From Corynebacterium aurimucosum ATCC 700975 (GTDB lineage: Bacteria; Actinomycetota; Actinomycetes; Mycobacteriales; Mycobacteriaceae), in the NCBI RefSeq assembly GCF_000022905.1, contig NC_012590.1, positions 930,001 through 994,000 of the forward strand: a DNA stretch of 64,000 nt, read 5' to 3'. Shown here one piece after another: positions 53,647 to 64,000 of this stretch (its first letter is position 1; every line of letters starts with the position of its first letter). A program made the position numbers and the translations under genes. The notes under the pieces are model-generated. The model was not told where the DNA came from and did not search any database. It saw only the letters and a program-made list of their open reading frames with translations.

Positions 53647-53677
53647 CGTCTTAAACCACTTCTTGTGAAGGATGATC

Positions 53678-56488
53678 ATGGAAAAGACCGCTGGACAGGG
53701 ACCGAACTCAAGTTTAATTCCGGACCGGACACGTGATTTTTGCCTTAGGGCTGATGGCTGGGCACGCGAGCGTAGTCCGCAAGCTCAAAGTTTGTGGGCG
53801 AAATCCGGTAACGCCATGGATTTTTTGACGTTGCCGCAGCATATGGTGGACTCGGCATGTGCCGCCTCTTTCTTGTATAACTCCTGGTTAGCAGCTTCGG
53901 TGAAGCGCTATCTTGCAGGAGAACTGGGGATCGATGAGGTAGGGGTTGAGTCGCTATATGTGTGGCTTGCGGGGTGTCATGACATCGGAAAAAGCGTAAA
54001 AACTTTCCAGCGTCTACTCCTGGAAAGTGATAAAGCCCATCTCGTGCATGCCGTCTCAGATGCAGGTTTAGATATCGACCTCAGTGTTGATGAGGCTAAC
54101 TTTGACAAGCTCCCGCATGGCGTTGCATCGGGTGAAATCCTCTCGCAATGGTTATGCGCGCGAGGTGTTCGCCTCCCAAAAGCTAACGCATTGGCGGCAG
54201 TGGTTAACGCCCATCACGGTATTGCGAATAAACCTTCTACACAGGTGCGCGCCCTTATTGAGGAGTACCCCGAATCGTGGAAGCGCGTGCACAAAGAATT
54301 GCTCGACGCGATGACGGAACTCTGTGGTGCTGACTCGGTGATTGAGATAGTTGGGCGTGGCAACAAGCTGCATCAAGGTGTGGCGGAAATCCTCACTGGG
54401 CTTGTGGTGATGGCGGACTGGATGGCTTCTAATGAGCACGCGTTCACGCTGCACGTGAGTGGAACGCAGCTTGAGCGGGTCGAGGCAGCTGCCGCAGCTA
54501 TCGACGTAACGATGCCTTGGGAACCTGAAAAAGGGGACTGGCGGGATATCGACGCTCACTTCCGGTGCTCGTTTGACTGGCCGGAGGAGTATTGTGCCCG
54601 GCCGGTGCAGCGTGCGGTCGTAGAGGCAGCGCAACAGCTGGAAGGACCAGCGCTTGTTGTTATTGAAGCCGAGACTGGGGTTGGGAAGACTGAAGCAGCC
54701 CTTGCTGCCGCAGAAATCTTGGGGGCTAACAGTGCAGCGCAAGGAGTTTTCTTCGCGGCGCCGACCATGGCAACGGCCAACGGATTGTTGGAGCGCACGA
54801 TCGAATGGGCTTCGAACAACAGCGTTGACTCGGTGAAAAGTATGTACCTTGCCCACTCCAAGAACGTTCTTTCGGAGCCGTACCGGCAGCTGAAATTCTC
54901 GCAAATTGGTAAAGACTCCGGGGAAGGTGGGGGAGTCATTGCATCGCAGTGGATGTCTGGACGGCGGCTAGGGCTGTTGTCCAATTTCGTTGTAGGTACC
55001 GTGGACCAAGTTCTGATGATGGCGTTGCAGCAGCGCTTTCACATGCTGCGGCACGTGGGGCTGGCGGGAAAAGTCATCATCTTCGATGAGGTGCACTCCT
55101 TTGATGTTTACACCAGTGACTACCTCCAAAGAACCATTGAGTGGCTTGGTTATTACGGTGCCAGCGTCATTCTCATGTCAGCGACGCTTCCGCCAGACAA
55201 GCGACGATCACTGGTGCAGGCATACTCCTGTGCTTCCTGGCCGGATGAGGAACCTATTGGGTATCCACTGCTAACACTCGCAACACGGGATTCCGTGGAG
55301 TTTCACTCGGTACCGCCAATGCCGACGAACTTAGAAGCGCGCATCGAGTACCTAGACGATGATGTGGAAAAGCTCGTTACATTTGCGGAGCAGTACCTCG
55401 ACAAAGGCGGCTGCGCGCTCATTATTTGCAATACGATTGCCCGCGCACAAGAGGCATATCGCGTGCTAGAAGGCGTTTATGGCGACGAGGTCCAGCTGCA
55501 TCATGCCGGTTTCGTTGCATGGGAGCGCGTAGCGAAAGAAGATGCACTGCGCGAGGAACTCGGACCGGATTCTCACCGGGGAAGTGGGCGTCCACAGCGC
55601 AAGATTGTGGTCGCAACCCAAGTGGCGGAGCAAAGCCTCGATATTGATGCTGATGTTCTCGTCACGGATATCGCACCGATGGATCTCATTATTCAGCGTA
55701 TCGGACGATTGCATCGCCATACGCGCCCAGCCACCGATCGGCCCGAAAAGCTACAACAGCCACGAGTGATAATCCGCGGGATCCTCAAGCGCCAACCTGT
55801 CCCTGAGTTTGATTCGGGAGCCGAGTTTATCTACGGCCAAACCCTTCTTCTATCGACGTACGCGATGCTTCCAGAAGTCTTTCATCGCCCCGACGATATC
55901 GAGGGGCTTGTCCGAGCAGCCTATGACAAGAACTTCACGCCGCCGGTGGAGTGGGACGAGGTATGGGAGAAAGCTCAGGCGCAAAATCTGTTTGCTGAAG
56001 ATAGCGCGCACTCGAAATCGTCGACTTTTCGACTGCCTAGCCCTCGGAGACGAACCAGCTATGATGCTCTTTTCTCGCAACTCATCAGCGATGACGCAGC
56101 ATCGGGTGATGAACGCGGAGCTGCTCAAGTCCGAGACGCCGAACCTTCGGTGGAAGTCATTCCTATTAGGAGTACCGAGTACGGGTATCAGCCGTGGGGC
56201 GTTGAAGAAGAAGTACTTGATGGCACTGAGCTGTCCTACAACGTTGCGTTCCATTTGGCTTCGAGCACAGTCCGTCTGCCAACCCGTATGACGAGGTGGG
56301 AATCTGATTTCGAGGCGGTTGTCAGCACTTTGGAAGAAGCTACGCCGGCACAATGGCGTTCTCACTTCCTATTGAGGGGACAACTGGCGTTGCCGCTGGA
56401 CGAATCTGACACCGCACAACTTGGGCGCTTTACCGTGACCTATTCCTCCAAGCTGGGAATCGAAATTCTTAGCGACGGGAGAAAGTGA
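53678..56488 (+). CDS. cas3: CRISPR-associated nuclease-helicase Cas3 (type I-E)
   Basis: 936-aa effector that is recruited by Cascade to unwind and cut target DNA. The HD nuclease domain has LPQHMVDSA, GCHDIGK (His101-Asp102), LPHGVASGE and NAHHG. The SF2 helicase has Walker A IEAETGVGKTEAALAAA, IIFDEVHSFD (DEVH box), LMSATLP (motif III), VATQVAEQSLDIDAD and QRIGRLHRH (motif VI). A C-terminal domain with low similarity follows. AAGG lies 6 nt before ATG 53678, preferred over the ATG six bases earlier that sits inside the ribosome-binding site. First gene of the operon. Confidence 0.96.
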   Translation: MEKTAGQGPNSSLIPDRTRDFCLRADGWARERSPQAQSLWAKSGNAMDFLTLPQHMVDSACAASFLYNSWLAASVKRYLAGELGIDEVGVESLYVWLAGCHDIGKSVKTFQRLLLESDKAHLVHAVSDAGLDIDLSVDEANFDKLPHGVASGEILSQWLCARGVRLPKANALAAVVNAHHGIANKPSTQVRALIEEYPESWKRVHKELLDAMTELCGADSVIEIVGRGNKLHQGVAEILTGLVVMADWMASNEHAFTLHVSGTQLERVEAAAAAIDVTMPWEPEKGDWRDIDAHFRCSFDWPEEYCARPVQRAVVEAAQQLEGPALVVIEAETGVGKTEAALAAAEILGANSAAQGVFFAAPTMATANGLLERTIEWASNNSVDSVKSMYLAHSKNVLSEPYRQLKFSQIGKDSGEGGGVIASQWMSGRRLGLLSNFVVGTVDQVLMMALQQRFHMLRHVGLAGKVIIFDEVHSFDVYTSDYLQRTIEWLGYYGASVILMSATLPPDKRRSLVQAYSCASWPDEEPIGYPLLTLATRDSVEFHSVPPMPTNLEARIEYLDDDVEKLVTFAEQYLDKGGCALIICNTIARAQEAYRVLEGVYGDEVQLHHAGFVAWERVAKEDALREELGPDSHRGSGRPQRKIVVATQVAEQSLDIDADVLVTDIAPMDLIIQRIGRLHRHTRPATDRPEKLQQPRVIIRGILKRQPVPEFDSGAEFIYGQTLLLSTYAMLPEVFHRPDDIEGLVRAAYDKNFTPPVEWDEVWEKAQAQNLFAEDSAHSKSSTFRLPSPRRRTSYDALFSQLISDDAASGDERGAAQVRDAEPSVEVIPIRSTEYGYQPWGVEEEVLDGTELSYNVAFHLASSTVRLPTRMTRWESDFEAVVSTLEEATPAQWRSHFLLRGQLALPLDESDTAQLGRFTVTYSSKLGIEILSDGRK

Positions 56489-56588: not shown

Positions 56589-58334
56589 ATGACTGACACC
56601 TCAACGTTTAACCTTCTCGATGAGCCATGGATCAAGTGCATGGATGGTACCAATCAGCCTGTAAGTTTGAGCATCCGCGATATCTTTTCTGGACGCGGTG
56701 ACGCTTACAAAGTCGTTGGAGACTCACCAACCCAGGATTACGCGGTGCTTCGTGTGCTGCTAGCTATTTTTTGGCGGGCACATGCTCTAGAACTTGTAGA
56801 AAGCTACGCGGACGATAACTGGGAAGACTTCGATTGGCCGGAATGGTTCGATGAGCTGCGTGAGCAGCTTGTGAATGAGAAGCGCGACGACGTGGTCCTT
56901 GAATACCTCGATGGCTACGAAGATCGGTTTGATCTTCTTTCACCAAGTGCTCCCTTCATGCAAGTCGCTGACCTGCATACGAAGTCTGGAGCAACCCGAC
57001 CAGTATCGTTCATTGTTCCGGAAGCCGCCGACGATTTCTTCACCATGCGCACAGCTGAAGGGCGAGAATCGCTAGCCCTTGATGAGGCGGCTCGGTGGCT
57101 CATTCACACTCAGGCGTTTGATTTCTCGGGCATTAAGTCAGGAGCGGAAGGGGACCCGCGCGTCAAAGGAGGCAAGGGATACCCCATCGGAACCGGTTGG
57201 ACCGGACGCACTGGCGGCACGATTATCCTAGGCGAAGGTGGGATTCTTGAGACTCTGATTCTCAATACCCCGCCGTCAGCGGTCTTGGATTCCCAAGAAG
57301 GAGGAGCTGTGAGCGCGGATACTCCCGTCTGGGAACGAGAACCCGACACCGCAGCACAGCGACCGGGATCAAGTGATGACATAGGCGCCGTCCCACACGG
57401 TGCGGTCGATCTCGCGACTTGGCAGGCACGGCGTATTCGTCTCTTTTTCGAAGGCGACCGTGCGGTTCAAGTATTGGTATCTAACGGCGACCGTATTCCA
57501 GATGCAGGAAAGAACGTCATGGGCGATCCCATGACCCCTTACCGCTACAGTCCGAATCAATCGAAGAAGGGGACACCTGCATATTATGCTCGCCCCTATG
57601 ACCCGACGCGGACAATGTGGCGAGCGCTCGATGCATTGATCGCGTTGGAGGATGACCCCGGATTCGATAACGGAAAGAACAAAGCTCCTAAGCGGCCGAG
57701 GAACCTCTCCAACCTGGCGGCTCTCGAAGCGGATGGGTACTTGGACAAGAGCCTTCTCGATCTCGCATTGGTGTCGATGGAGTACGGCCCGCAGGAGTCG
57801 TCCGTGGCCTCGACGTTTATCGCCACGATAGGTTTGCCACTCGTCGTACTGCGTGCCGATGAAACTGGACGCAAGGTGCGCAATGCCGTACGTACCTCCG
57901 CTGAGAAAACTGGCAAAGCTGCAATCAGCCTCGGCTGGTTTGCCGGTCAGTTGCTCGTCGCCGCTGGCGGTGACTATGAATTCGGAAGCAGTACTGCTGA
58001 CCGTTTCTATGCTCGTCTTGAACCGCTCTTCCTGACATGGATGACAGGGTTGATCTCTGACAACGCTGAGGAATGGCAGATTGATTGGCAAAAGCAGGTC
58101 CGCGAACAGGTGCTTCGTGATGCCCGCGAACTTCTTCGTGGTGCTGGAACAAAGGCCATCGTGGGCAGAGAAGTCGACGCCGGAGACAGCGGCAAGGGAC
58201 GAATAGTTTCAGCCGGCTCGCTCTACCGACAACTGCATCGAAGGCTCGATAAAGACCTACCGTTGACGACTTCTCTCACCATCCCAGGCACAGGTGCCTC
58301 TGGAAACTCACACGAGGATGACTCCGATGACTAA
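56589..58334 (+). CDS. casA: Type I-E Cascade large subunit Cse1 (Cas8e)
   Basis: 581-aa large subunit that recognises the protospacer-adjacent motif. FNLLDEPWIKCMDGTNQPVSLSIRDIF is the standard Cse1 opening; FDLLSPSAPFMQVADL, AARWLIHTQAFDFSGIKSG and GKGYPIGTGWTGRTGGTIILGE follow, with a helical C-terminal bundle. An exceptionally strong ribosome-binding site (AAAGGAGGTGA) precedes the ATG by 7 nt, in line with high demand for Cascade subunits. Its last 8 bases overlap cse2. Confidence 0.95.
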   Translation: MTDTSTFNLLDEPWIKCMDGTNQPVSLSIRDIFSGRGDAYKVVGDSPTQDYAVLRVLLAIFWRAHALELVESYADDNWEDFDWPEWFDELREQLVNEKRDDVVLEYLDGYEDRFDLLSPSAPFMQVADLHTKSGATRPVSFIVPEAADDFFTMRTAEGRESLALDEAARWLIHTQAFDFSGIKSGAEGDPRVKGGKGYPIGTGWTGRTGGTIILGEGGILETLILNTPPSAVLDSQEGGAVSADTPVWEREPDTAAQRPGSSDDIGAVPHGAVDLATWQARRIRLFFEGDRAVQVLVSNGDRIPDAGKNVMGDPMTPYRYSPNQSKKGTPAYYARPYDPTRTMWRALDALIALEDDPGFDNGKNKAPKRPRNLSNLAALEADGYLDKSLLDLALVSMEYGPQESSVASTFIATIGLPLVVLRADETGRKVRNAVRTSAEKTGKAAISLGWFAGQLLVAAGGDYEFGSSTADRFYARLEPLFLTWMTGLISDNAEEWQIDWQKQVREQVLRDARELLRGAGTKAIVGREVDAGDSGKGRIVSAGSLYRQLHRRLDKDLPLTTSLTIPGTGASGNSHEDDSDD

Positions 58335-58995
58335 CACTTCAACTAGCACTGATTACCCGAGCACGTCGACAGGGCCAACCTTGCGCCAAGCAGTTGCTCG
58401 GACTGCGAACGACCTTCAATTTGCTATCTTGCGCTCGCCAAACCATTCGCAAAGTGCACAGGCACGCGCAACGCTTGCGAGACTTCGCAAATATGCTTCC
58501 GTGCCCCTCAACGACCAACCTCTAGCTCTAGAGGAAGTTCTGCTGATCCTTCATCCGCCTCTTAGCGAGAAGGAACTCGGCAGAGGAAACGCTCCTTCAG
58601 CGTCGGAGTCTGCAGCATTTCATGCCCTCGTCATGTTTGGCATTCACATGCAAAGTGCGACGACTGACGCCCACGTTGAAGGCCAAAGCTTTGCCCGTGC
58701 ATGTGGCCGCTTTTTTGCACAGAGCGAATCGCAGTCCACAAAGCCCCGCTTCGATGCCATGCTCGTTTCACGCGATGAAGCATCCCGATTGATCCATATC
58801 CGCTCGCTCATCACGCTGCTTCGCGGCGCAAAGATTGGCTTTGACTATGGGCAATTCGCACAAGACCTCAGAATTCTCAGCGCTCGGACCTCCACCCAAG
58901 CTGATCAGGATCGCCGTCAAGGGGTTCTCTTGAGGTGGGGTCGTGATTTTGCCACTGGTGCTTTTGTCAAGAGCACGAAAGCTACTGAATCCTAA
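58327..58995 (+). CDS. casB: Type I-E Cascade small subunit Cse2 (Cas11)
   Basis: 222-aa helical protein of the Cascade belly. PTLRQAVARTANDLQFAILRSPNHSQSAQARATLARLRKYA is the N-terminal helical domain, FHALVMFGIHMQSATTDAHVEGQSFARACGRFF and RFDAMLVSRDEASRLIHIRSLITLLRG the family-specific region. The start at ATG 58327 has GAGG 9 nt upstream and overlaps the cse1 stop. It is longer than E. coli Cse2 (160 aa), as usual in actinobacteria. Confidence 0.92.
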   Translation: MTNTSTSTDYPSTSTGPTLRQAVARTANDLQFAILRSPNHSQSAQARATLARLRKYASVPLNDQPLALEEVLLILHPPLSEKELGRGNAPSASESAAFHALVMFGIHMQSATTDAHVEGQSFARACGRFFAQSESQSTKPRFDAMLVSRDEASRLIHIRSLITLLRGAKIGFDYGQFAQDLRILSARTSTQADQDRRQGVLLRWGRDFATGAFVKSTKATES

Positions 58996-59029: not shown

Positions 59030-60184
59030 ATGTCCCTTGTCATTGATATCCACGCACTACAAACTCTGCCGCCATCTCTGATCAACCGAGACGATACGGG
59101 TGCTCCCAAGTCCGCAATTTTTGGTGGGGTACCGCGCCAGCGCGTGTCCTCACAATCCTGGAAGCGCGCAATTCGAAACTACTTTGAAAAGAACGTCGAC
59201 CCTGAGTTCGTGGGGGACCGCTCAAAGCGCTTGCCAGAGAAGATCGCGAAACTCGTTGAGAACCACGATGGCTGGGATTCTGAGCGCGCTATCAAACAGG
59301 TTTCTGATCTTTTCAAGGCCGCAGGTATTTCGACCGAAGTCGATAGCAAGCGGATCAAGGAACTAGAAAAGTCCGACGCCGAGGACAAAGAGGAGCTCAT
59401 TAAGGAAGCTAGCTATCCGCGGACTAAGTACCTCATCTTCTTGAGCCCGCAGCAGATTGATCGCGCAGTTCGAGCGATCGTCGATGCTGACGGAGAGAAG
59501 ATCAAAAAGGCTGAGGCTAAAGTGATCCTCGATACGCAGCATTCTGTCGATATGGCGATGTTTGGTCGCATGATTGCTGATGACGCTGCCTTCAATGTTG
59601 ATGCCGCAGTGCAGGTTGCTCATGCGTTGGGTATCCACAGCAGCGCTCCAGAATTCGACTATTTCACTGCGGTCGATGATCTTGCAGAAGATGGTGAAGA
59701 GACGGGTGCTGGGATGATCGGCACGGTACAAATGATGTCTTCTACCCTGTACCGGTTCGCCACTGTGAACGTAGCTGGCCTTACGAAGAATCTCGCCTCC
59801 GAAGAGAACGCGAAGCAGGCTGCGGTTCAGTTTGTCGACGCGTTCATCAAGTCGATGCCCACCGGCAAGATCAATACTTTTGCCAACCACACGCTGCCTG
59901 AGCTGGTCTATGTCACAGTGCGCGATACCCGTCCGGTCAGCCTTGTGACGGCGTTTGAAGAGCCCGTCCAAGCCACCGACGACAAGAACCTGCGTTTAGC
60001 AGGTGCCGAAGCTCTGGCAAAGGAAGAAAGGGAGTTTGAGGAGAACTACGGTCTGAAGCCATTGGCTGCATTCGCGGTTGGAGTAAGCGAAGCGCGAGCA
60101 CCGTTCGCTGACATCGCTGAGACCGTAACTTTGCCCGAACTTTCGGAACGTCTCACCGCAGCGTTGGATTCCTCCCAGTCCTAG
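59030..60184 (+). CDS. casC: Type I-E Cascade backbone subunit Cas7e (Cse4/CasC)
   Basis: 384-aa backbone protein, six copies of which wrap the crRNA. VIDIHALQTLPPSLINRDDTGAPKSAIFGGVPRQRVSSQSWKRAIR is the diagnostic start; DMAMFGRMIADDAAFNVDAAVQVAHALG and GKINTFANHTLPELVYVTVRD follow. AAGGAAAGGTTCACC provides the ribosome-binding site. Confidence 0.96.
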   Translation: MSLVIDIHALQTLPPSLINRDDTGAPKSAIFGGVPRQRVSSQSWKRAIRNYFEKNVDPEFVGDRSKRLPEKIAKLVENHDGWDSERAIKQVSDLFKAAGISTEVDSKRIKELEKSDAEDKEELIKEASYPRTKYLIFLSPQQIDRAVRAIVDADGEKIKKAEAKVILDTQHSVDMAMFGRMIADDAAFNVDAAVQVAHALGIHSSAPEFDYFTAVDDLAEDGEETGAGMIGTVQMMSSTLYRFATVNVAGLTKNLASEENAKQAAVQFVDAFIKSMPTGKINTFANHTLPELVYVTVRDTRPVSLVTAFEEPVQATDDKNLRLAGAEALAKEEREFEENYGLKPLAAFAVGVSEARAPFADIAETVTLPELSERLTAALDSSQS

Positions 60185-60200: not shown

Positions 60201-60917
60201 ATGACATCGAGCTTATTACTGCTACTCAAAGCCCCGTTGCAGTCGTGGGGCAACGAATCACGCTACGCCACTCGAACAACGTCTCAGATTCCATCGAAAT
60301 CCGGAGTGCTCGGCATGCTCGCCGCCGCCGAAGGTCGCCGGCGGACCGACGGCATTGAGGATCTCGCACGTCTGACGTTCGCTGTGCGAGTTGACCAATC
60401 TGGCAGTCTGCTGCGCGATTATCAGACGGCACAGGATTGGCAGCGCAATCCTAATGCATCTGCAAAATTGGTAACACGCTATTTCCTCTCTGATGCTGCC
60501 TTTGTTGCCGCCATCGAGGCAGAGGACCGCGGTTTACTTGAAGGTTTGGCTGAGGCGCTGAACAAACCTGCATTCCCCATTTTCTTGGGACGACGTTCAT
60601 GTCCGGCACCGCCAAATTTGGTGCAGGGAATTGATGATATACCTGCGGTTGAGTCGCTTCAGGCGCACTCTACGTGGCATGCCACAAAGGAGTACATGAA
60701 GACCTGTGGAGAGAAGGTAGCCCTGCCGATTTATCGCGATGCAAAGCCAGGTGAACTCGGGGAGTCGTTGCAAGATGTGCCCGTGTCGTTTGACCCGAGG
60801 CACCGAAAGTACTCCTGGCGCACGGTTGTTCAACGTGAGAGCGCCATGGTTGATAATCCCTTGGATGCATCGCAGCTGCGGCCGGACCCATTCATGGAAG
60901 CGGTGATGAACGCGTGA
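60201..60917 (+). CDS. casD: Type I-E Cascade subunit Cas5e (CasD)
   Basis: 238-aa RAMP protein that caps the 5' handle of the crRNA. LLLLKAPLQSWGNESRYATRTT, with the SKSGVLGMLAAAEGRRR glycine-containing segment, is typical; CGEKVALPIYRDAKPGELGESLQDVPVSFDPRHRKYSWR forms the C-terminal region. GAAGGGAG precedes the ATG. The stop overlaps the cas6e start. Confidence 0.95.
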   Translation: MTSSLLLLLKAPLQSWGNESRYATRTTSQIPSKSGVLGMLAAAEGRRRTDGIEDLARLTFAVRVDQSGSLLRDYQTAQDWQRNPNASAKLVTRYFLSDAAFVAAIEAEDRGLLEGLAEALNKPAFPIFLGRRSCPAPPNLVQGIDDIPAVESLQAHSTWHATKEYMKTCGEKVALPIYRDAKPGELGESLQDVPVSFDPRHRKYSWRTVVQRESAMVDNPLDASQLRPDPFMEAVMNA

Positions 60918-61606
60918 CCACGCTAACCAAGATCCTGATCAACCCTCAGTTGCGTCAAGGGCGGAAGCTTCTTACGAATCCACATGCCATGCATGCGGCA
61001 GTTAGTGCAGCTTTTCCGCCCGACATCGATACCGATGAAGCACGGTTGTTATGGCGGATTGATCGAAATGGTCACGAAAATGCTCTTTACATTGTTGGTC
61101 CCGAGAAACCGACGGCGTCTGGAATTGTAGAGCAGGCTGGCTACGACACACGGCCCGCCCAGTCTCTTGATTACACCCGCCTGCTGGGTTCCTTGCAGAA
61201 GGGGCAGCGCTGGAGGTTTGAGCTGCTTGCAAACCCAACCTATTCTCAGTCCAACAACGGAAAACGCGGCAAAGTTAAAGCCCACGTTTCAGTAGATCAC
61301 CAGCTTGAGTGGCTCTATTCTCGGGCGGAAAAGGTTGGTTTTGCGTTGGCTCCGCGCGCCAATGACACCGTGCCTGCGGAAGAACGAGCACGTTGGTCGG
61401 TAGAAGATGAAACAGCCATCGTGGAGAGGCGGACCCTTGATTTCCGCAAAGGTGGGAACCGACGCCACATCCGTATTGTAACGGCCCGCTATCGTGGCAC
61501 CCTGGAGGTCACAGATTCTGCGCTGCTCCGCTCCACTCTTACTCACGGCATAGGTCGTGCTCGTGGTTATGGTTGTGGTTTGATGACGTTGGCGGCAGTT
61601 TCTTAA
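60914..61606 (+). CDS. casE: crRNA endonuclease Cas6e (CasE)
   Basis: 230-aa nuclease that cleaves the pre-crRNA at the base of the repeat hairpin. NPHAMHAAVSAAFP contains His27, at the position of the catalytic His of the family; the C-terminal glycine-rich loop HGIGRARGYGCGLMTLAAV binds the repeat RNA. The GTG start overlaps the cas5e stop by 4 bp (GTGA). Confidence 0.94.
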   Translation: MTTLTKILINPQLRQGRKLLTNPHAMHAAVSAAFPPDIDTDEARLLWRIDRNGHENALYIVGPEKPTASGIVEQAGYDTRPAQSLDYTRLLGSLQKGQRWRFELLANPTYSQSNNGKRGKVKAHVSVDHQLEWLYSRAEKVGFALAPRANDTVPAEERARWSVEDETAIVERRTLDFRKGGNRRHIRIVTARYRGTLEVTDSALLRSTLTHGIGRARGYGCGLMTLAAVS

Positions 61607-62544
61607 TGGCTACGCCACATGAGGTCCCTATCGCACGCCAGGCCTTGGCGCGCGTAGGGGACCGGATCAGTTTTCTTTACGCTGAACGCTGTGTAGTGAA
61701 TCGTGATGGCAATTCGCTCACGATAATGGACCAACGGGGCATCGCTCATCTTCCAGCTACCCAAATCGCAGCTCTTCTTTTGGGGCCAGGGACAAAGATT
61801 ACGTATGCTGCGATGGCCCTGCTTGGCGACGCTGGCGTAAGTACCGTCTGGGTAGGAGAGCGCGGTGTGCGGTACTACGCGCACGGCCGGCCGCCAGCAA
61901 AATCAAGCCGCATGGCAGAAATCCAAGCGGAGGTAGTCACTCACCAACGAAAGAGATTGGATTGTGCGCGCCGCATGTACTCGATGCGGTTTCCTGGCGA
62001 AGATGTGTCAAGTCTGACCATGGCACAACTACGTGGTCGGGAAGGCGCGAGGATGAAGAAAGTGTACGAAGCGGAATCGAAACGGACCGGAGTTTATTGG
62101 AATCGTCGATCCTATGATCCGAATGACTTCGATTCATCGGATCCAATCAACCAGGCGCTTACCGCTGCGAGCGCAGCGCTTTATGGAGTAGCCCATGCCG
62201 TAATCGCCGCATTAGGCTTCATTCCAGCCTTAGGCATTATTCATAACGGAACTGATCGTTCTTTCGTTTATGACATCGCAGATCTATATAAGGCAGAAAT
62301 TTCAATCCCGGCTGCATTCGACGCTGTCGCTGCTGCCAAGGGAAATCCATCGACGGAAGTCCGTCGGCATGTTCGCGATTATGTTGTTTCGCACAGGCTG
62401 ATGCCTCGCATGGTAAAAGACTTGAAATCGTTGTTCGATATCCCTGATGACGAACTTGTGAGTGATGTTGAACTTATGTTGTGGAGTGAACTCGAGGTTA
62501 TTGCTTCAGGCGTGAACTGGTCTGAAGAGGAGACACTTTCATGA
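61606..62544 (+). CDS. cas1: Adaptation integrase Cas1e
   Basis: 312-aa integrase of new spacers. Metal ligands are the Glu of LRGREGARMKKVYE, the His of GIIHNGTDRSFVYDIADLYKAE and the Asp of the same segment. ISFLYAERCVVNRDGNSLTIMDQRG is the N-terminal beta domain. ATG 61606 overlaps the cas6e stop (TAATG) and is preferred to a TTG/GTG-type start 33 bases upstream. Confidence 0.96.
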   Translation: MATPHEVPIARQALARVGDRISFLYAERCVVNRDGNSLTIMDQRGIAHLPATQIAALLLGPGTKITYAAMALLGDAGVSTVWVGERGVRYYAHGRPPAKSSRMAEIQAEVVTHQRKRLDCARRMYSMRFPGEDVSSLTMAQLRGREGARMKKVYEAESKRTGVYWNRRSYDPNDFDSSDPINQALTAASAALYGVAHAVIAALGFIPALGIIHNGTDRSFVYDIADLYKAEISIPAAFDAVAAAKGNPSTEVRRHVRDYVVSHRLMPRMVKDLKSLFDIPDDELVSDVELMLWSELEVIASGVNWSEEETLS

Positions 62545-62897
62545 TCGTTCTCGTCGTTACAGCGTGCCCGGCTGGGCTCCGAGGTGATCTTTCCAAATGG
62601 TTGATTGAATTAACTCCTGGAGTGTTTGTAGGTCGTCCTTCAGCAAGAATTCGTGATTTGTTGTGGGAGCGAACAGTCGAACTATGTAAGGACGGGAGAG
62701 CGCTATTGGTTTATTCGGCAGCTAATGAACAAGGCCTTGAGTTTAAGACTCACCGGCACCATTGGCAGCCAACAGACTTCGATGGAGTCACACTCATGGT
62801 TCGTCCCTCTCCTGAACGGAAGACTGTGCAGAGCAGAACTGGATGGTCGCGAGCACGGCAGGTCCGGTCTGCCTATCGTAAACAGAAAGGGAAGTAG
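62541..62897 (+). CDS. cas2: Adaptation protein Cas2e
   Basis: 118-aa ferredoxin-like dimerising partner of Cas1. IVLVVTACPAGLRGDLSKWLIELTPGVFVGRPSARIRDLLWE is the type I-E signature, followed by GLEFKTHRHHWQPTDFDGVTLM and a basic C-terminal tail. ATGA overlap with cas1. Confidence 0.96.
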   Translation: MIVLVVTACPAGLRGDLSKWLIELTPGVFVGRPSARIRDLLWERTVELCKDGRALLVYSAANEQGLEFKTHRHHWQPTDFDGVTLMVRPSPERKTVQSRTGWSRARQVRSAYRKQKGK

Positions 62898-62984
62898 AAA
62901 GAACTGGGGCACAGCCTCTCTCTTGCTGCTGAGAAGTCGTATGTAAACTGAACTTACGGCTCGTTAATGCGCTGTTCAGCAAGT
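62898..62984 (+). promoter_or_regulatory. CRISPR leader
   Basis: 87 bp between the cas2 stop and the first repeat, AT-richer than its surroundings, with a CTGAAC / GTTCAG inverted repeat (62948-62979) around CTCGTTAATG. Position and repeat orientation (hairpin repeat reading GTGCTCC...GAGCC away from cas2) mark it as the leader end, so the newest spacers should be those nearest 63013. Confidence 0.65.
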
Positions 62985-64000
62985 GTGCTCCCCGCGTAAG
63001 CGGGGATGAGCCGTTGGGGATACGCCCACCGTGCTCACGGCTCAGGTGCTCCCCGCGTAAGCGGGGATGAGCCCGTTACGCACAACTGCGCCTAGTGGGG
63101 CGAAAGGTGCTCCCCGCGTAAGCGGGGATGAGCCGAATCGTAGTGTTGGCCTTGACCTGCGTGTCCTGTGCTCCCCGCGTAAGCGGGGATGAGCCCTCAT
63201 CGCGAGGTAATCAACCGCTCGAGATGTGGTGCTCCCCGCGTAAGCGGGGATGAGCCCCGCTCGAGATGTGGCGAAAGCGTCATCCAACGGTGCTCCCCGC
63301 GTAAGCGGGGATGAGCCGACAGTCGGCGGCACACTGAGCGAGAAGCGGACGTGCTCCCCGCGTAAGCGGGGATGAGCCCCGTACTATCCCATTGCTCAGC
63401 TCACCGGGCCGGTGCTCCCCGCGTAAGCGGGGATGAGCCCTCTTGATACTGATTAGCGGATAGACCTACGGCGTGCTCCCCGCGTAAGCGGGGATGAGCC
63501 GGCCCTAAAGGCGCAGTAGAACCGGGCGAAGTGGTGCTCCCCGCGTAAGCGGGGATGAGCCCCCACCGCCATTAGGTCATTGCGTATCAATTGGGTGCTC
63601 CCCGCGTAAGCGGGGATGAGCCCACGTTTCCCTCGCTGTCGAGTTGCCACATCTCGTGCTCCCCGCGTAAGCGGGGATGAGCCCTCTGCTGATGCGATGG
63701 CCGCTCTTGATGAGGCGTGCTCCCCGCGTAAGCGGGGATGAGCCCCCGTCCGGGTACGTATTAACTCTCGTGGTGGCGTGCTCCCCGCGTAAGCGGGGAT
63801 GAGCCGGCACTTCACGCGCTGTCCGATATCCCTGTCCGGTGCTCCCCGCGTAAGCGGGGATGAGCCCCAGCATGTCGACGGGATAGTCGCCGGACGGTAG
63901 TGCTCCCCGCGTAAGCGGGGATGAGCCCCTATGGGAATCTCGACGCCCATTAGAGACCGAGTGCTCCCCGCGTAAGCGGGGATGAGCCGTCAGCGTCCTG
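62985..64000 (+). CRISPR. Type I-E CRISPR array, at least 17 repeats, open at the window edge
   Basis: 17 copies of a 28-bp repeat starting every 61 bp from 62985 to 63961, with 16 complete 33-bp spacers and a partial seventeenth. All repeats I read are identical: they begin GTGCTCCCCGCG, contain the hairpin CCCCGC-GTAA-GCGGGG and end GATGAGCC. The repeat closely resembles the E. coli type I-E repeat. The base following every repeat is C (11 times) or G (6 times), so the functional repeat is probably 29 bp with a variable last base from the protospacer motif. Spacers 4 (63196-63228) and 5 (63257-63289) share 14 nt. No spacer matches another part of this window by eye. Confidence 0.98.

Follow-up and report, generated by a model that had tools for sequence, protein, structure and literature searches.

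In the type I-E CRISPR-Cas system of Escherichia coli, the last base of the repeat is derived from the protospacer-adjacent motif, and a repeat ending in CCT goes together with an AAT target (PMC3338789, Swarts 2012). For type I-E, PMC8482600 tabulates AAC for Bifidobacterium, AC for Corynebacterium, AAN for Klebsiella and AAT for Lactobacillus, and the same table (its Table 1) also gives AAG, AAA, AG and AWG. In the actinobacterium Streptomyces avermitilis, AAN is effective according to a review, and AAG preceded all but four of the protospacers of acquired spacers (PMC4762764; PMC12231136). Reading a motif from overlapping spacers has also been done before: in 2012 the motif CCN was read in Sulfolobus from a contig of overlapping spacers on both strands (PMC3468723). 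The Bifidobacterium AAC, the Corynebacterium AC, the motif-derived base and the overlap-based reading are therefore already in print. An AA-S motif (AAC or AAG) for Corynebacterium type I-E was not found in the titles and abstract openings of the open-licence literature, which does not prove its absence, and the available parts of PMC6306256 and PMC12231136 give no motif for this system.

The locus of Corynebacterium aurimucosum ATCC 700975 resembles the E. coli system, as PMC3338789 describes it, in its gene set, in its 28+1-nt repeat, in AA at positions -3 and -2 and in the retention of the third motif base; E. coli has mostly G at this base, whereas the units of the C. aurimucosum array begin mainly with C, then with G, and never with A or T in 97 spacers. 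The S. avermitilis system shares the actinobacterial host and AA at -3/-2 (PMC4762764; PMC12231136), but AAC and not AAG leads here. The Corynebacterium entry of PMC8482600 concerns the same subtype and genus and reads AC, whereas in the present data AA is clear and AAG forms a second class; AA followed by C or G refines that entry. As for the Sulfolobus case (PMC3468723), its spacers were newly captured in an experiment, whereas the present array is natural and no invader was matched to its overlapping pair.

The window analysed here is a stretch of 64,000 nt (G000:C2:930001-994000), in whose final kilobase a CRISPR array begins, directly 3' of a set of cas genes (Table 1). Profile models identified cas3, casA to casE, cas1e and cas2e, all of the type I-E genes, and Cas3 retains its HD, helicase and C-terminal domains (Pfam). 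The cas genes align over nearly their full length with those of 13 relatives, with the exception of a C. striatum Cas3 match that starts at residue 156. The array continues beyond the window and holds 97 spacers in total (G000:C2:992985-998928). Its unit of 61 nt consists of a 28-nt repeat and a 33-nt spacer, with a single spacer of 32 nt, and the repeat has the CCCCGC/GCGGGG stem and the length and spacing of type I-E (28-29 nt and 61 nt). There are 97 repeats with at most three mismatches and one with six. A single change is seen in each of four repeats, which stand, like the last repeat with its six, towards the distal end of the array; because the altered repeats lie away from cas2, the cas2 side is probably the leader end and spacer 4 would be younger than spacer 5. 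The locus is thus, by its gene and repeat content, an ordinary and apparently complete type I-E CRISPR-Cas system, and its repeat is matched at least once in 52 of 242 Corynebacterium species genomes.

Table 1. Positions, within the window, of the cas genes and of the array features discussed in the text.
Feature	Position	Strand	Basis
cas3	53672..56488	+	Cas3 core and HD models above cut-off; PRK09694 match below its own cut-off; Pfam Cas3_HD, DEAD, Cas3_C
casA (cse1/cas8e)	56589..58334	+	TIGR02547 above cut-off
casB (cse2)	58330..58995	+	TIGR02548 above cut-off
casC (cas7e)	59030..60184	+	TIGR01869 above cut-off
casD (cas5e)	60201..60917	+	TIGR01868 above cut-off
casE (cas6e)	60914..61606	+	TIGR01907 above cut-off
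cas1e	61606..62544	+	TIGR03638 above cut-off
cas2e	62541..62897	+	TIGR01873 above cut-off
Putative leader (gap between cas2 and first repeat)	62898..62984	+	Inferred from position and from the distal placement of altered repeats
Start of CRISPR array (runs on to G000:C2:998928)	62985..64000	+	Repeats
Spacer 4	63196..63228	+	Array parse
AAC within spacer 4, preceding the spacer 5 protospacer	63213..63215	+	Overlap read
Repeat separating spacers 4 and 5	63229..63256	+	Repeat sequence
Spacer 5 (first 14 nt equal to last 14 nt of spacer 4)	63257..63289	+	Spacer comparison

The first-pass annotation had pointed out that the last 14 nt of spacer 4 are identical to the first 14 nt of spacer 5, and this identity was confirmed and runs exactly from end to start. 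In 9409 comparisons, which covered all spacer pairs on both strands and each spacer against its own reverse complement, it was the longest run shared among the 97 spacers; no other exceeded 10 nt, and eight reached 10 nt. When the spacers were shuffled in 30 sets, the longest same-strand overlap from end to start was 8 nt, and the number of such overlaps of at least 14 nt expected by chance is 6.4e-5. If spacers 4 and 5 come from overlapping sites, spacer 4 therefore displays what precedes the protospacer of spacer 5, namely TCAA and then C, that is, AAC. The further claim that the two protospacers overlap on the same strand of one invader gains support from the expectation of about 6e-5 chance overlaps and from the agreement of this read with the targets of other spacers.

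The first base of the units carries the same signal. In the 97 spacers of this array it is C in 70, G in 27 and A or T in none, while AAN in the two prophages of the same chromosome, where AA has a frequency of 0.047, is distributed as A 0.21, C 0.27, G 0.30 and T 0.21. If AAN were taken as available in these prophages, the probability of finding no A or T among 97 would be 4e-24, and C is favoured over G relative to this availability (p about 1e-6). For a broader view, arrays were taken from 18 of the 51 other genomes that bear the repeat, from the present array and from 20 named loci, two of which (L033, L049) carried no array. The resulting 37 array loci represent 36 Corynebacterium or same-genus genomes and one Trueperella; wrong-strand readings of the palindromic repeat were dropped prior to counting, and equal spacers were counted once, L030 and L267 being apparently the same assembly. 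The 2455 unique spacers, those of the present array included, begin with C in 1565, with G in 678, with T in 167 and with A in 45. A or T thus opens 0 of 97 spacers here versus 212 of 2358 in the rest (Fisher 3e-4), so that the present strain is the stricter one. The first base of type I-E units also varies by lineage (L025-L104): C opens 115 of 117 units in Rhodococcus sp. 1168, whereas the main array of Mycobacterium simulans has G in 107 of 116 units and several clostridial MAGs have mostly T.

Protospacers were sought in a target set of 73 loci and 1.29 Mb, mostly prophage DNA of Corynebacterium. Phage portal genes (PF04860 in 27, PF05133 in 53), sought across 242 genomes from this genus, marked 93 places, of which 59 are spanned by stretches of at most 20 kb and four more by loci of 2.6-4.3 kb; 30 were unused, and the set was extended in the genome of the present strain. 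The best match of each spacer was taken by script comparison, matches near the ends of stretches being left out. Nine spacers of four arrays match at 32/32, and AA stands upstream of all nine (AAC 5, AAG 3, AAT 1); AA is upstream for 34 of 43 spacers at ≥30/32 and for 59 of 85 at ≥28/32. At these three levels, the first base of the spacer is the same as the one just ahead of the protospacer in 9/9, 41/43 and 78/85, and at ≥28/32 the agreement is 50/56 for C, 20/20 for G, 7/8 for T and 1/1 for A. With the present array excluded, 67 spacers remain at ≥28/32, with AA in 45 and first-base agreement in 61. A control with the spacer interior reversed gave 71 matches at 24-26/32 and nothing from 27/32 upwards. 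Within the present array, 25 spacers match at ≥26/32, of which 18 lie behind AA (AAC 14, AAG 3, AAT 1) and seven do not (AGC 4, CAC 2, GCC 1); targets of the AGC type may represent weak motifs, escape variants or relatives that have diverged.

Type I-E placement of the motif, with AA at -3/-2 on the 5' side of the protospacer, is thus found here, and the third motif base is kept in the array in the 78 of 85 matches named above, which also bears out the suggestion that the first C of spacer 5 is motif-derived. The expectation that AAC or AAG would precede the other protospacers holds for most of them, but not for each. A motif of AAC, as proposed at first, describes this pair and the major class and is too narrow for the array; because 27 of the 97 spacers start with G and matched targets show AAG, the motif in this strain is AA-S, a modest refinement. 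Nor is acquisition limited to AAG as in an E. coli-like AAG-only system, G standing at -1 for only those 27. The parallel drawn with AAG of E. coli is sound in this form, as AA-S with its last base kept in the array, which is known for E. coli. The comparison of arrays and targets supports AA followed by C or G as the acquisition motif here, with T as well in other species.

Searches of larger collections added perfect targets outside the prophages for one spacer. Compared with plasmids in near mode, the whole array matched two records, both through spacer 60, which is identical over 33/33 nt to plasmids of C. diphtheriae and C. kefirresidentii (OV884290.1:60074-60106 and NZ_CP067011.1:25757-25789), with CCGAA before the shared G, that is, AAG. 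These two plasmids are mobilizable (MOBF), related and of the same replicon cluster. The distant mode gave 125 plasmid records. For phages, the near mode gave no match with the whole array and the distant mode 12 records, all from C. xerosis phages; three of these, when inspected, align in repeat-like stretches. The phages Bran, Dina and Stiles carry there, in an unannotated gap, a mini-array (L022:2996-3140, L023:1496-1640, L024:1496-1640) made up of two repeats resembling those of type I-E plus a third, worn one; its two spacers each start with GTTTG. Nine further C. xerosis phage records were matched by the array query, some of them the same phages twice. The mini-arrays recall the virus-borne mini-arrays described in PMC6858448, and no targets of their spacers were found in the loci compared.

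Other overlapping spacers also permit a reading. Spacers 54 and 71 of the present array show an opposite-strand overlap of 23 nt with 21 identical positions, and each reads AAC before the other, so that all three overlap reads of this array (spacers 5, 54 and 71) give AAC. Across the 37 loci there were 72 readable overlaps versus 28-40 in five shuffles; short overlaps are therefore mostly chance, and weight was placed on reads with at least 18 compared bases and on the exact pair 4/5. Twenty reads reach 18 compared bases, 12 with AA and eight without (TAC, CAC, TGC, GAC, TCT, ACC, GCG, GGG). AAC is read from spacers 5/6 of C. striatum and 22/42 of Trueperella bonasi, and AAG from spacers 4/3 of C. 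tuscaniense. Triplets without AA (TAC, CAC, TGC, GAC and others) come from longer overlapping pairs in L261, L267, L275 and L265/L270. Shorter overlaps across arrays, with 15/16 and 12/13 compared bases or less, read CGG and ACA before spacers 43 and 58 of the present array and are probably chance. The remark that few arrays allow such a reading was too strong: 10 of the 37 array loci have a readable overlap of at least 14 nt within the locus when mismatches are allowed.

We consider it very probable, from the array and target comparisons, that this type I-E system adapts next to AAC or AAG, with the third base carried into the array, and that spacers 4 and 5 overlap in one invader. An uninterrupted match to the two spacers joined (52 nt), which the first-pass annotation had proposed as a check, did not appear in the phage, plasmid, IMG/VR and Corynebacterium collections searched. 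There was no match among 50,697 phage records, no exact 27-mer of the joined sequence and none of three back-translated readings in IMG/VR, and no central 29-mer with up to three mismatches in 242 Corynebacterium genomes. The 72,556 plasmid records gave three weak partial matches (22/22 nt, E 0.08), from Paraburkholderia, Burkholderia and Halalkalicoccus, which were judged to be chance. This lack of a continuous target in the collections searched would fit a coincidental identity of the 14 nt, or a short sequence that unrelated invaders happen to have in common, with AA before it by chance; but only about 6e-5 such overlaps are expected by chance, the overlap runs exactly from end to start, and the AAC read agrees with the matched targets of other spacers and with the overlap 54/71, and we hold this to be highly improbable.

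The other alternatives concern the motif itself. The motif might be AC, or just A-rich, with AA arising partly from the choice of prophages; Table 1 of PMC8482600 gives AC for Corynebacterium, and 26 of the 85 matches at ≥28/32 lack AA. Yet AA precedes all nine perfect matches and 34 of 43 at ≥30/32, AAG forms a second class, and spacers that start with G have AA upstream in 18 of 20 cases at ≥28/32, which leaves this view very improbable. It could also be supposed that the repeat has a two-state end, C or G, and that the motif is merely AA before a 33-nt protospacer, since an identical 28-nt stretch stands ahead of all spacers and the array uses just two bases at this position. The base tracks the target, however, in 78 of 85 matches at ≥28/32, including G in 20/20 and T in 7/8, and the E. 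coli system is known to keep the motif base (PMC3338789); a two-state repeat end is thereby largely refuted, and the chance that it is correct seems to us extremely small.

Under adaptation next to AA-S, spacers would be taken beside AAC in about 72% and beside AAG in about 28% of cases, and the third base of the motif would become the first base of the 33-nt unit. Most likely, Cas1-Cas2 would capture a 33-nt prespacer starting at this third base and insert it at the leader, as PMC3338789 reports for E. coli. Spacer 5 would have been captured before spacer 4, the two sites overlapping on a single strand of one invader. Such a same-strand pair would be in line with priming by the spacer captured first; sets of same-strand spacers in single clones have been described (PMC3338789). 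The same motif may also license interference. The discrimination of target from non-target by the motif in type I-E is the subject of PMC3764190, and because the repeat ends in CC before the first base, the present array has no AA there and would probably escape attack. The two stages, adaptation and interference, may be unequally strict about the motif (PMC6546366), and the evidence from the array bears on adaptation.

Some targets lie in the same chromosome, where gene content marks two adjoining prophages, at about C2:2105000-2155800 and from about 2156900. Spacers 29 (AAG), 84 (AAC) and 34 (AAC) match them at 32/32 (G000:C2:2134966, 2136111 and 2148633; L214, L215), and spacers 33 (AAG) and 79 (AAC) at 31/32, as does spacer 31 but behind AGC. 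Spacer 34 overlies the start of a putative thyX gene and spacer 84 that of a 60-aa gene. In the 99.5-kb prophage stretch, 23 spacers match at ≥25/32, 16 of them behind AA, and the reversed control gave one match, at 23. The situation recurs in C. striatum, where one genome (G211, L252) has one spacer present both in the array and in its prophage, and four spacers of that array match that prophage at 32/32 behind AAC, AAG, AAC and AAT. The two C. aurimucosum prophages also have a run of small genes in common with 99-100% protein identity (G000:C2:2142357-2145573, L215; L259), which suggests recent exchange between them.

With the motif settled, an active system should make such self-matches detrimental to the cell. 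The cas genes nevertheless look intact, and the prediction is therefore that an inhibitor, silencing of the system or a concealed defect underlies the tolerance of these matches. A two-gene unit occurs once in each prophage (G000:C2:2127867-2128787 and 2156943-2157872; proteins 75% and 92% alike) and encodes a protein of 152/155 aa and one of 148 aa with a weak C-terminal helix-turn-helix match. Over 65 aa, the first protein shares 52% identity with a stretch of the C. xerosis phage Bran. The helix-turn-helix gene was found at E 1e-8 in one of 242 Corynebacterium species genomes, that of the present strain, and 56 relatives of its protein in the protein collection are mostly unnamed, the two named ones coming from C. 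aurimucosum and C. coyleae. It is conceivable, though rather unlikely, that the prophages hold off the type I-E system with this unit as candidate inhibitor and regulator; against it, no named anti-CRISPR family was matched among nine prophage proteins (PHROGs, NCBIfam), and the two prophages in their entirety may be private to this genome.

The finding would set AA followed by C or G as the acquisition motif of a common Corynebacterium type I-E system, for which the published table has AC. The first base of each unit would be a free, per-spacer record of the motif, and a lineage-specific first base of type I-E units could serve as a readout of the third motif base without targets. Perfect matches of spacers to a strain's own resident prophages gain meaning once the motif is known, and may point to inhibitors or silencing.
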